A stretch of 32,357 nt of DNA from positions 1 through 32,357 of the forward strand of contig VBLP01000387.1 in the NCBI GenBank assembly GCA_005887925.1, given 5' to 3'. Under the pieces are notes generated by a model. That model saw only the letters and a list, made by a program, of their open reading frames with translations, searched no databases and had not been told where the DNA came from. This DNA comes from Deltaproteobacteria bacterium (lineage in GTDB: Bacteria; Myxococcota_A; Polyangia; Haliangiales; Haliangiaceae). The position numbers and the translations under genes are program-made. Positions 28,308-31,466 of this stretch are shown here, piece after piece. Each line of letters starts with the position of its first letter. Positions within the stretch are counted from its first letter, which is position 1.

Positions 28308-28756
28308 ACGACCACGTCCACGTCGCGATCCGGGTCCCCGCGGGGTGGATCGAGCCTCCGGACAGCCCGGCCGATCGCCTCCGCGACGGCCTGCAGCGCT
28401 ACCTCGTGGCCCAGCCCGAAGGGCTGGTGCAGGTCACGATCGCGCGCGTTCCGGAGGCCGCGCTGGCCGAGCAGCTCAGGAGCTGGAGCTCGAACCAGAG
28501 CCAGGGCTTGCAGGGCTCGCCCGGCGAGTCGCAGCCCGCCGAGTCCGCGATCGCGCAGCGCGCCGGCTGGATCGGCCGCGAGCTTCGCGGATCGTTCGAG
28601 GACGAGATGGAGTATCGCCAGCCGATGCGGGTGATCGTGTGCGGCCGGGCGTTCGGCGCCCAGGCGATCGTGGTGGCTATCGCGGCCCCCGAAACCATCG
28701 CGGCCGGCGCGCCGGAGTTTTTCGCGCAGCTGCTCGCCTCGATCGGGCCGGCCTGA
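28304..28756 (+). CDS. Hypothetical protein at the end of the miaA-accA-rhomboid operon
   Basis: The 150-aa protein starts at GTG 28304, overlapping the rhomboid stop by four bases. It lacks a signal peptide and has the pattern IRVPAGWIEPPDSPADRLRD early, a Ser/Gln-rich middle (SWSSNQSQGLQGSPGE) and a C-terminal mixed strand/helix region (MRVIVCGRAFGAQAIVVAIA). The fold may be of the PsbP/DcrB kind, but I cannot confirm this. The last 80 bases overlap the convergent M50B-like gene. Confidence 0.7.
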   Translation: MNDHVHVAIRVPAGWIEPPDSPADRLRDGLQRYLVAQPEGLVQVTIARVPEAALAEQLRSWSSNQSQGLQGSPGESQPAESAIAQRAGWIGRELRGSFEDEMEYRQPMRVIVCGRAFGAQAIVVAIAAPETIAAGAPEFFAQLLASIGPA

Positions 28757-29600
28757 ACGTCGGCCGGGTGCCGGTGGTCTGCTCGATCCAGACGTCGATC
28801 TCGCGGTCGGTCTGGCGCACGGGCTCGCGCTCCGCCCGCGCGGCCTCGCGCCCGGCCGGCATGACCTGCGCGAGCGCGCGCGAGCCGCCGAGCCGGAGCG
28901 CGACGTAGAGCACCGCGAGCGACCACAGGAGCCACACGATCGCCCAGCTCCACACCGCCCAGGTCGCCGTGGTGCCGAATGTCGCCGCCGCCATGTTGGT
29001 GGCGTCCGAGGCGCCCGCGACCTTGCCGCCGACGACCTGCGCCGGCCGGAACAGCACGCGGATGTCGAGGATCGCATCGACGCACGACTGCGCGGCGATG
29101 AAGTGCGCGATCGCGAGCCGCAGCCGGGCGGGCACGGCGATCGCGGCGACCGCACACGCGGCGCCGATCGCCCCGATCGCCCACGGGCCGAAGCTGTCTC
29201 CGTCGGGCGTGTCGATCACGGTCAGTGCGGTGCCGACCAGCAGCGCGGCCAGCGCGAGCAGCGCCCAGCGCGCCCAGCGCAGGTCGGGGGTCACGACCAG
29301 CAGCACGGCGCCCCACAGCGGCGTGCCCATGTAACCGGCCGCCGCGATCAGCGCGCTGGCGACCCGGCCGGCCTCGCTGCTGCCGTAGGCCAGCCCGCTG
29401 GTGTCGCGGTAGATCAGCACGCGGTCGAAGCCGATGCCGGTGACGATCATCGCCAGGCCGTGCGACAGCTCGTGCAGCCAGGTCGCGAGCAGCTTGAACG
29501 GGTAGAGCAGCACGCCGCCGAACGGCAGGTTCCACAGCAGCAGCGAGGCCAGCAGCGCGAAGGCCAGCGTACGGAGCTCGAGACGGTCGGTAGGCTTCAC
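28677..29600 (-). CDS. M50B-like membrane metalloprotease-family protein
   Basis: From GTG 29600 the 307-aa protein has about seven transmembrane helices and the zinc motif HELSH (ATWLHELSHGLAMIVTG, about residues 43-47). Further pattern fits the peptidase M50B-like group: AAAGYMGTPLWGAVLLVV. The C-terminus is a basic cytosolic tail. Members are intramembrane protease relatives with mostly unknown substrates. The start overlaps the stop of the upstream gene (GTGA). Its C-terminal coding end overlaps the facing hypothetical gene by 80 bases. The last about 35 residues are Arg-rich and may not be conserved. Confidence 0.78.
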   Translation of the reverse strand: MKPTDRLELRTLAFALLASLLLWNLPFGGVLLYPFKLLATWLHELSHGLAMIVTGIGFDRVLIYRDTSGLAYGSSEAGRVASALIAAAGYMGTPLWGAVLLVVTPDLRWARWALLALAALLVGTALTVIDTPDGDSFGPWAIGAIGAACAVAAIAVPARLRLAIAHFIAAQSCVDAILDIRVLFRPAQVVGGKVAGASDATNMAAATFGTTATWAVWSWAIVWLLWSLAVLYVALRLGGSRALAQVMPAGREAARAEREPVRQTDREIDVWIEQTTGTRPTFRPARSRRAAARKTPARRPRWFRGPR

Positions 29601-30283
29601 TCGGACTTGGCAGGGGGCGAGGGGTCGTCCGCCGCGGGCGGCTTGGCATCAGGCGGCGGAGGAGGCGCTGGATCGAACATGCCCTCGAACAGGTGCGATG
29701 TGCGATGGCGAACTGCGGCACCGAGCCGGACCAGCTCGCGCGGATCGAGCCAGCTGAGCAGCGCCTCACTCGGCTTTCTGGCCAGCGACCAGACGTCGGC
29801 GAGCTCGACCGGGGCCGTCCCACCGCACACCAGGCCGATCAGCGCTCCCGAGGCCGCTCCCGTGACCACCCCGGCAGCCGGGTACGCCAGCCAGGCCAGC
29901 GAGTGCCCCGGCAGGTGGCCCTGCGGGATCGCCGCGATCAGCACGAGACCTGCGCTTGCGACCGCGTGCGCCCGCGCCGCCACGAACACCGCGCGCCTGC
30001 GTCCGCCGTCGATCGATGCATATGCAGACAGTCGGCCGATCCCACCCGCGGTGAAGATGGCCGCGACACCGGCGAACACCGCGGTGAGCCGCATGATCTG
30101 CATCACGGGGACGTCGGGGTTGCCGATCCCGAGCCGCGCGAGGACCCAGATCGCCGCGGTGAGCGCCGGGACCTCGACCGCGACTCCCGTCAGCGCGCCC
30201 TTCCAGAATCCCCAGCGCGGCTTGGCCAGAGGAATCCGGCCAGAAGATCGCGCAGTTATGCTGGCTGACGGATGGTCGTCCAT
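29597..30283 (-). CDS. Membrane protein of unknown function
   Basis: The 228-aa protein has about four transmembrane segments (about residues 30-50, 64-82, 106-122, 130-152). A cytosolic-looking region (LARKPSEALLSWLDPRELVR) and a Pro-rich, acidic C-terminal tail follow. I do not recognise the family. It is translationally coupled to the M50B-like protease, so it may be its substrate, regulator or partner. It is divergent from the tube-like gene, with 66 bases between the starts. Confidence 0.65.
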   Translation of the reverse strand: MDDHPSASITARSSGRIPLAKPRWGFWKGALTGVAVEVPALTAAIWVLARLGIGNPDVPVMQIMRLTAVFAGVAAIFTAGGIGRLSAYASIDGGRRRAVFVAARAHAVASAGLVLIAAIPQGHLPGHSLAWLAYPAAGVVTGAASGALIGLVCGGTAPVELADVWSLARKPSEALLSWLDPRELVRLGAAVRHRTSHLFEGMFDPAPPPPPDAKPPAADDPSPPAKSE

Positions 30284-30304: not shown

Positions 30305-30332
30305 TTGGCGGTCGCTGCATTCCCTGTACTAT
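30305..30332 (+). promoter_or_regulatory. Sigma-70-type promoter for the tube-like gene
   Basis: A TTGGCG box (30305-30310) and a TACTAT box (30327-30332) are separated by 16 bases. A GAGGG ribosome-binding site lies about seven bases before ATG 30350. Both hexamers deviate from consensus but the spacing and position are right. Confidence 0.5.
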
Positions 30333-30349: not shown

Positions 30350-31258
30350 ATGGCTAACGAAACTCGCGCCTATGCCGCTGCTCACTTCGCGCTGGAGCTC
30401 AGCGGCATCGAAAAGCTGGGCGTGCTGCGCTCGATCGAAGGTGGGGGGCTCAAGGCCGAGGTGATGACCTACCAGAACGGCGGCACCTACGACCGCTGGC
30501 GCCAGCTCGGCAAGCCCAGCTTCGAGGACATCAAGCTGCAGGTCGGCATGGCGATGTCCGAGCCGTTCTACAAGTGGATCGAGCTGTTCTTCGCCGGCAA
30601 GGCCGACCGCAAGGACGGCGCGATCGTCGCCGGCGACTTCTATTACAAGGAGCGCGCGCGTCGGGAATTCACCGATGCGATGATCAAGGAGCTCACGTTC
30701 CCCAAGTTCGACGCGACGGACAAGAACACCGCGTACATGGGCGTGACGTTCAGTGTCGAGAACATCCTGTTCAAGAAGGGCGAAGAGGGCAAGACGCTCG
30801 ATCAGAACGCCGGGACCGAGACCCAGAAGTCGTGGAAGGCCTGCAACTTCACGTTCAGCATCGACGGCTTCGACTGCTGCAAGCGCGCCACGAAGATCGA
30901 CTCGTTCACGATCAAGCAGAACGTGCTCGACTACCACGCCGGCGGCCGCCGCGCGCCGTCCAAGACGCCGAGCGCGATCGACTTCCCGCAGATCTCGTTC
31001 TACCTCCCCGAGGTCGACGCCCAGCCGCTGGCCGATCACTTCAAGAAGCGCGGCGTCGACGGCGAGGTCCCGGGCCGGCTGCACGGCCAGATCACGACGT
31101 TCGACAACGCGCAGTCCACCAAGTTCACGCTCGAGTTCTTCAACGCCGACATCCTCAACATGGCGCCCGACAAGGCCGACTCCTCGACCGAGGAGATCAA
31201 GCAGGTCAAGGTCGACCTGTACGTCGAGAAGATGTCGTTCAAGTACACGCAGGGCTAG
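30350..31258 (+). CDS. Phage tail-tube / contractile-injection tube-like protein with duplicated domain
   Basis: The 302-aa protein resembles T4 gp19-type tube proteins. The N-terminal half shows HFALELSGIEKLGVLRSIEG, a GGTYDRWRQLGKPSFEDIKL stretch, FYKWIELFFAG, and the late FPKFDATDKNTAYMGVTFSVENI strand pair. The C-terminal half (about 155-302) repeats the plan: NFTFSIDGFDCCKRATKIDS, then PQISFYLPEV, HGQITTFDNA, FTLEFFNADILNMAPDKADS and a final VDLYVEKMSFKY strand. Tube proteins form hexameric rings in phage tails, type VI secretion and extracellular contractile injection systems; a double-domain subunit would give a trimeric, pseudo-sixfold ring. No sheath, baseplate or ATPase genes are nearby. 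It ends 7 bases from the facing small gene. Confidence 0.72.
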   Translation: MANETRAYAAAHFALELSGIEKLGVLRSIEGGGLKAEVMTYQNGGTYDRWRQLGKPSFEDIKLQVGMAMSEPFYKWIELFFAGKADRKDGAIVAGDFYYKERARREFTDAMIKELTFPKFDATDKNTAYMGVTFSVENILFKKGEEGKTLDQNAGTETQKSWKACNFTFSIDGFDCCKRATKIDSFTIKQNVLDYHAGGRRAPSKTPSAIDFPQISFYLPEVDAQPLADHFKKRGVDGEVPGRLHGQITTFDNAQSTKFTLEFFNADILNMAPDKADSSTEEIKQVKVDLYVEKMSFKYTQG

Positions 31259-31265
31259 CCCGCGA

Positions 31266-31466
31266 TCAGCTGCAGCGGGCCGCGCGGTGCAGCGAGTGCC
31301 AGCGCGCGACCGCCTCGCACTTGGCGGCGCCCAGCAGCGCGGCGACCGCGTCGCGCTCGTCGGGGCCGGCCGCGAACGCGTCGACCGGCGTCAGCACGAA
31401 CGCCAGCACGTCCAGCGCGCTGCCGGGATTCGGCTGGTACGTGGTGCTGAACAGCGTCTCGCCCAT
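31266..31466 (-). CDS. Small hypothetical protein (66 aa)
   Basis: From ATG 31466 the protein begins MGETLFSTTYQPNPGSALDV and continues as a compact Ala-rich helical sequence (PDERDAVAALLGAAKCEAVA) ending with Cys-Ser. A strong ribosome-binding site, GGGAGGG, lies six bases upstream, which supports this start over the longer open frame from 31685. The function is unknown. It faces the tube-like gene across a 7-base gap and is divergent from the kinase gene. Confidence 0.6.
   Translation of the reverse strand: MGETLFSTTYQPNPGSALDVLAFVLTPVDAFAAGPDERDAVAALLGAAKCEAVARWHSLHRAARCS

Follow-up and report, generated by a model that had tools for sequence, protein, structure and literature searches.

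A double-barrel tube-type protein encoded apart from a contractile injection cluster: a probable inner-tube component supplied in trans

The closest described relatives of the protein reported here are the tube proteins of contractile injection systems (CIS) and those of certain siphophages. In CIS, Cis1, Afp1 and Alg1 form the main tube, and Cis5 and Cis7 are initiators (PMC8894136, PMC8894135); the roles of Cis1/Cis5 and Alg1/Alg5 used below are taken from these papers. The CIS tubes compared here are single-barrel proteins that form sixfold rings. In pb6, the tube protein of siphophage T5, the hexamerisation domain is duplicated and the tube is threefold, its trimeric rings being pseudo-hexameric (PMC5717097). 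A duplicated tube barrel is also present in the myophage hub (gp27-like) and in the type VI secretion system (T6SS) spike protein VgrG, where the barrels are linked otherwise than in pb6 (PMC5717097).

The window analysed here, a stretch of 32,357 nucleotides of contig VBLP01000387.1, carries a single gene for a protein of this kind. Like T5 pb6 and the tubes of DT57C, P74-26 and SH-Ab15497, which it matches in fold from end to end (TM about 0.6), the protein has two fused barrels per chain. Unlike pb6, with which it shares 8-12% identity and which belongs to a non-contractile tail, it is one of three chromosomal paralogues linked to a contractile sheath. With Cis1/Afp1/Pvc1/Alg1 and the initiators Cis5/Alg5 it has in common the gp19 domain (PF06841/TIGR02241) and a genomic tie to sheath, hub, spike and baseplate, but those proteins are single-barrel, hexameric and encoded within the cluster. 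The protein described here has fused barrels, and only one of the three paralogous genes lies within a cluster. As regards gp27-like hubs and VgrG, the CIS clusters considered below have a GPD-type hub of their own. The gene product is probably an inner-tube protein of a CIS, encoded in trans to a main cluster located elsewhere, with pseudo-hexameric trimers as its rings.

The gene, its promoter and the fold of its product

The double-barrel gene (30350-31258, plus strand) starts with ATG and encodes a tube-type protein of 302 aa without an export signal, of what we call class A; the evidence is PF06841, the AlphaFold2 (AF2) model and its orthologues. PF06841 (T4 gp19 tail tube) matches it in two stretches with E=9.6e-16 and 58.3 bits, as against a cut-off of 28.2, and is the only Pfam family matched at E up to 1; the Hcp family of T6SS is not matched. 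The first barrel, approximately residues 1-147 (30350-30790, plus strand), contains the Pfam stretch at 11-137. The second, approximately residues 153-302 (30806-31255, plus strand), contains the other Pfam stretch (30839-31234), which is below the cut-off. Since the profile of the first half of the double-barrel family matches the consensus of the second half with E=2.4e-20, the halves are duplicates, the second having diverged from the first.

The AF2 monomer, built with 69 homologues, has a pLDDT of 93.3 and a pTM of 0.87 and consists of two beta-barrel-like domains with one main helix apiece, that is, of confidently modelled gp19/Hcp-type barrels. In a Foldseek search the top matches of this model were two-domain tube and baseplate proteins of the siphophages T5, DT57C, P74-26 and SH-Ab15497, followed by single CIS tube subunits, each matching one half with TM(target) values of 0.65-0.78. 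In sequence, the first barrel is nearest to CIS inner-tube proteins, namely Streptomyces 8bl4_v, Afp1 and Pvc1 (hmmsearch of the family profile against the PDB). The first-pass annotation, made from the sequence alone, had read both halves as gp19-type, and on this Pfam, the half-against-half profile, AF2 and Foldseek agree. Its suggestion that a fused dimer would assemble as a pseudo-sixfold trimer is a reasonable one, given the pseudo-hexameric trimers of pb6, a solved relative.

Class A orthologues in the same genus and in near genera align over the full length with 50-65% identity, and dN/dS in orthologous pairs is 0.25-0.58, which indicates purifying but loose selection. Full-length orthologues and dN/dS together show that 30350-31258 is a real gene. 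It was also described at first as standing alone with its own promoter, and this description holds. A putative promoter (TTGGCG, 16 nt, TACTAT; 30305-30332, plus strand) precedes it, and the -10-like element is kept in orthologues: TA[CG]A[AC]T occurs no more than 60 bp upstream of the start in 19 of 24 of them, versus 0.5 expected. A generic promoter scan raised no flag at 30305-30332, as TTGGCG-16-TACTAT falls under its threshold.

A phage origin was considered and rejected: there were 0 matches in 50,697 phage records or IMG/VR viral contigs, and the only match was a plasmid-borne tail protein of Rhodococcus, 28% identical over half the length.

Paralogues, gene order and co-inheritance with the sheath

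The assembly that contains the window has two further double-barrel genes. One of them (C182:268-1149) heads a CIS cluster, where it is followed by genes for a small DUF6760-like protein, a sheath and a single gp19 tube protein and then by hub-like and OB-spike-like genes. The other (C550:9416-10300) occupies a second orphan site. Two more loci of this genome (G000:C515 and G000:C733), each with a sheath gene and a single gp19 tube gene, probably represent other CIS types.

We compared the neighbourhoods of about 75 double-barrel genes from metagenome-assembled genomes labelled Kofleriaceae, Myxococcales or Deltaproteobacteria. Genes on the relatives' loci were called with a simple codon-bias caller, and tblastn was used instead for the low-GC genomes G016, G025, G017 and G320. 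The genes fall into three syntenic classes. In class A, that of the window, the double-barrel gene stands between genes for a membrane protein and a 66-aa protein. Class B genes lie within the CIS cluster, between sheath1 and sheath2, and class C genes are orphans that adjoin genes for a membrane protein and an M16-like peptidase (neighbours named by eye). In a relative with a long contig, the complete CIS reads DUF4255-like cap, sheath1, double-barrel B, a 131-aa protein, DUF6760-like protein, sheath2, single gp19, a 1575-aa protein, CIS_tube, GPD hub, OB spike, gp25, baseplate J and Tail_P2_I, with an AAA ATPase further on; the DUF4255-like cap and DUF6760 labels are the family names that we take to apply. 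The single-barrel gp19 gene is present once in many genomes, near the CIS_tube/hub block. G036 and G388 carry two tandem double-barrel genes inside the CIS cluster plus one orphan. In G166, which is distantly related within the phylum, the sheath is directly followed by three tandem single-barrel tube genes (L194:9119-10508), two of which outscore all other single-barrel proteins against both double-barrel halves; this tandem is likely a picture of the state before fusion.

The lack of sheath, spike, baseplate and ATPase genes nearby, noted in the first-pass annotation, is true of this locus and of its counterpart in every relative examined, but the paralogue in the same genome sits in a CIS cluster. 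That paralogue and the distribution of the genes among 56 relatives contradict the view that the protein has no connection with injection. Of these relatives, 29 have both double-barrel and sheath genes and 23 have neither. Three have a double-barrel gene but no sheath (two genomes that are 59% and 75% complete, and G042), and one has a sheath, with weak matches, but no double-barrel gene. Among the 29 sheath-positive genomes, 24 have exactly three double-barrel genes and none has more than three of full length (counted by hand); in several of the genomes short of three, the loci are on broken contigs. Another genus of the same family includes three relatives with neither sheath nor double-barrel genes.

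The window's gene is flanked by genes for an M50B-like protease (28677-29600, minus strand), which is coupled to that for a membrane protein (29597-30283, minus strand), and, on the other side, for the 66-aa protein (31266-31466, minus strand); neither of the latter two belongs to a Pfam family above cut-off. In the CIS-less relatives G016, G025 and G030, the M50B protease and 66-aa genes remain at site A (in G030 also the membrane protein gene) but the double-barrel gene is absent, and no trace of it was found between these flanks. Similarly, the flanks of site C remain in CIS-less G016, G030 and G034, where the double-barrel gene is absent. The persistence of the flanks implies that the neighbours are independent of the gene and that the gene tracks the CIS. 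In the CIS-less relatives the whole set may have been lost or never been present, so the independent events are few. The genomic link to a CIS is one in trans and not one of adjacency: it consists of co-occurrence, the paralogue in the cluster and absence from CIS-less relatives. The block of protease, membrane protein and 66-aa protein is itself old and conserved, and in the family it is found beside accA and miaA, independently of the tube gene.

Divergence of the double-barrel genes and exported relatives

In a maximum-likelihood tree, class A forms one lineage (support 100/100) and so does class C (100/99). Orphan genes from two further families group with class A (99/96), which makes the orphan state an old one. 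Mean distances are 1.08 for A, 1.92 for B and 1.35 for C, compared with 0.14 for sheath1, 0.48 for sheath2 and 0.75 for the single tube protein; the rate of the double-barrel genes is 8-14 times that of sheath1. The disparity is seen in G017 (4.1 Mb; L118, L120, L198), where all three double-barrel proteins have no more than 30% identity while sheath1 has 80% and DUF6760 79%. Across several families sheath1 is 75-98% identical, in many genomes more so than accA, and the identity of the adjoining tube-type gene falls to about 25% (for example, sheath1 at L122:8294-9511 and double-barrel B at L122:9680-10594). Net of sheath distances, the distances of the three classes are correlated, with partial r of 0.83 for A-C, 0.70 for B-C and 0.57 for A-B; without the fastest genus, the A-C and B-C correlations hold and that of A-B vanishes. 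Such in-step change fits mutual contact of A, B and C, and may in part reflect shared lineage effects.

Some double-barrel proteins have N-terminal export signals, recognised by eye (L188:9507-10445, L191:3-488, L085:8115-9098, L189:9553-10488, L193:9631-10545 and L175:632-1630). Those of G320 and G273 are lipobox lipoproteins, that of G042 has a Sec-type signal, those of G346 and G048 have Tat (twin-arginine) signals, and the N-terminus of the L175 protein is hydrophobic. No sheath was found in the five genomes searched that carry such proteins, and the Tat form, as modelled by AF2, retains two tube-type domains. They give the impression of genuinely domesticated tube proteins that are exported. 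Domestication away from injection, which had been suggested for the window's gene, is not supported for that gene but fits these other members, that is, exported forms in sheath-less genomes of three other families.

Role in the injection apparatus

The family profile of the double-barrel proteins scores inner-tube chains above initiator chains in all six systems compared in the PDB. Main-tube chains reach 56.0 (8bl4_v), 35.4 (Afp1) and 33.6 (Pvc1) bits and initiator chains 24.6 (9gtp_a) and 19.5 (7aeb_Y), with no match for Afp5/Pvc5. For the single-barrel protein, initiator chains score above main-tube chains in three of the six systems (Streptomyces CIS, PVC and Afp) and not in the other three; its gene lies near the CIS_tube/LysM-type initiator and the hub, the position of Cis5. 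The NCBIfam CIS1 and CIS5 models, tried as indicators of role, gave scores below cut-off: the 302-aa protein misses that of the CIS1 inner-tube equivalog (19.4 versus 220 bits), and the clusters' single-barrel gp19 is likewise under the CIS1 cut-off. The role of main inner tube is more likely than that of an accessory ring.

The likely history leads from tandem single tube genes through fusion into a double-barrel gene to dispersal of its copies. Genomes of the Kofleriaceae type usually keep three, B directly after the main sheath in the cluster and A and C at fixed orphan sites. Three double-barrel copies would close into a pseudo-sixfold ring, matching the six sheath subunits per layer. We infer this trimeric ring from the precedent of T5 pb6; the main-tube role and the joint assembly of the three classes are likewise inferences. 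In the likeliest arrangement, A, B and C all contribute to the inner tube (the Cis1/Afp1 role), as different or mixed rings, and the only single-barrel gene of the cluster would encode a tube initiator of the Cis5/Afp5 type. A stricter form of this reading, which we put forward tentatively and think improbable as it stands, is that the tube consists of heterotrimeric A+B+C rings, in which six non-identical barrels would form a mixed, possibly asymmetric and fast-evolving conduit within a near-invariant sheath. A candidate parallel to such mixing is the Hcp2-Hcp3 heterohexamer of the Bacteroides fragilis T6SS (PDB 9vne, by its entry title), a tube-type ring made from different paralogues, although these are single-barrel proteins, unlike A, B and C.

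The strongest point against the main-tube role is the fast change of A, B and C beside a near-constant sheath, which is odd for a tube packed in that sheath. It would be easier to understand if the single-barrel gp19 were the main tube and A, B and C were accessory rings, such as adaptors from the trimeric hub to the tube, tube-cap adaptors or cargo-bearing rings. A single tube gene suffices in some contractile tails, and duplicated barrels are known in hub-type proteins of contractile machines (PMC5717097). Nevertheless, the Cis5 position of the single-barrel gene, its initiator-like scores in Streptomyces CIS, PVC and Afp, and the location of double-barrel B next to the conserved sheath1 count against such an arrangement, and we consider it doubtful. 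It also seems rather unlikely that A is a spare CIS tube protein, redundant with B and used in certain states, in the manner of the orphan Hcp genes of type VI systems. The promoter of A does differ from those of C and the cluster, and simple patterns revealed no motif common to the three; but the fixed number of three genes and the separate, old lineages of A, B and C argue for non-redundant roles.

The inner-tube reading also has to be set against the earlier proposal that an isolated or domesticated tube protein forms an envelope or signalling device with its neighbours (the M50B protease, the membrane protein, the 66-aa protein and a kinase). The neighbourhood is fixed across the genus, the promoter is conserved, and exported relatives do occur in sheath-less genomes. 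This proposal is largely refuted by the CIS-less relatives, in which the protease, membrane protein and 66-aa protein persist without the double-barrel gene. Furthermore, the sister orphans of two other families have neighbours different from those in the window, the presence of the genes follows that of the sheath, and the CIS-linked members have no export signal, so that we see very little chance of its being correct.

The gp19 barrel, CIS and the fused tube proteins of siphophages are already known. In the literature searched, which was not exhaustive, we found no CIS whose duplicated tube proteins are encoded by three genes inherited together, two of which lie outside the cluster; searches on duplicated or trimeric CIS tube proteins returned phage and known-CIS cases only, and none of the papers found named Kofleriaceae with contractile injection. 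The present case cautions that an orphan phage-tail gene should not be called domesticated before the whole genome has been checked. If the inner-tube reading is true, the duplicated, threefold tube has also arisen in a contractile machine, and CIS gene catalogues built on compact clusters would miss core parts. The near-constant sheath beside a fast-changing tube also raises the question of what drives the change, be it cargo, lumen or assembly.
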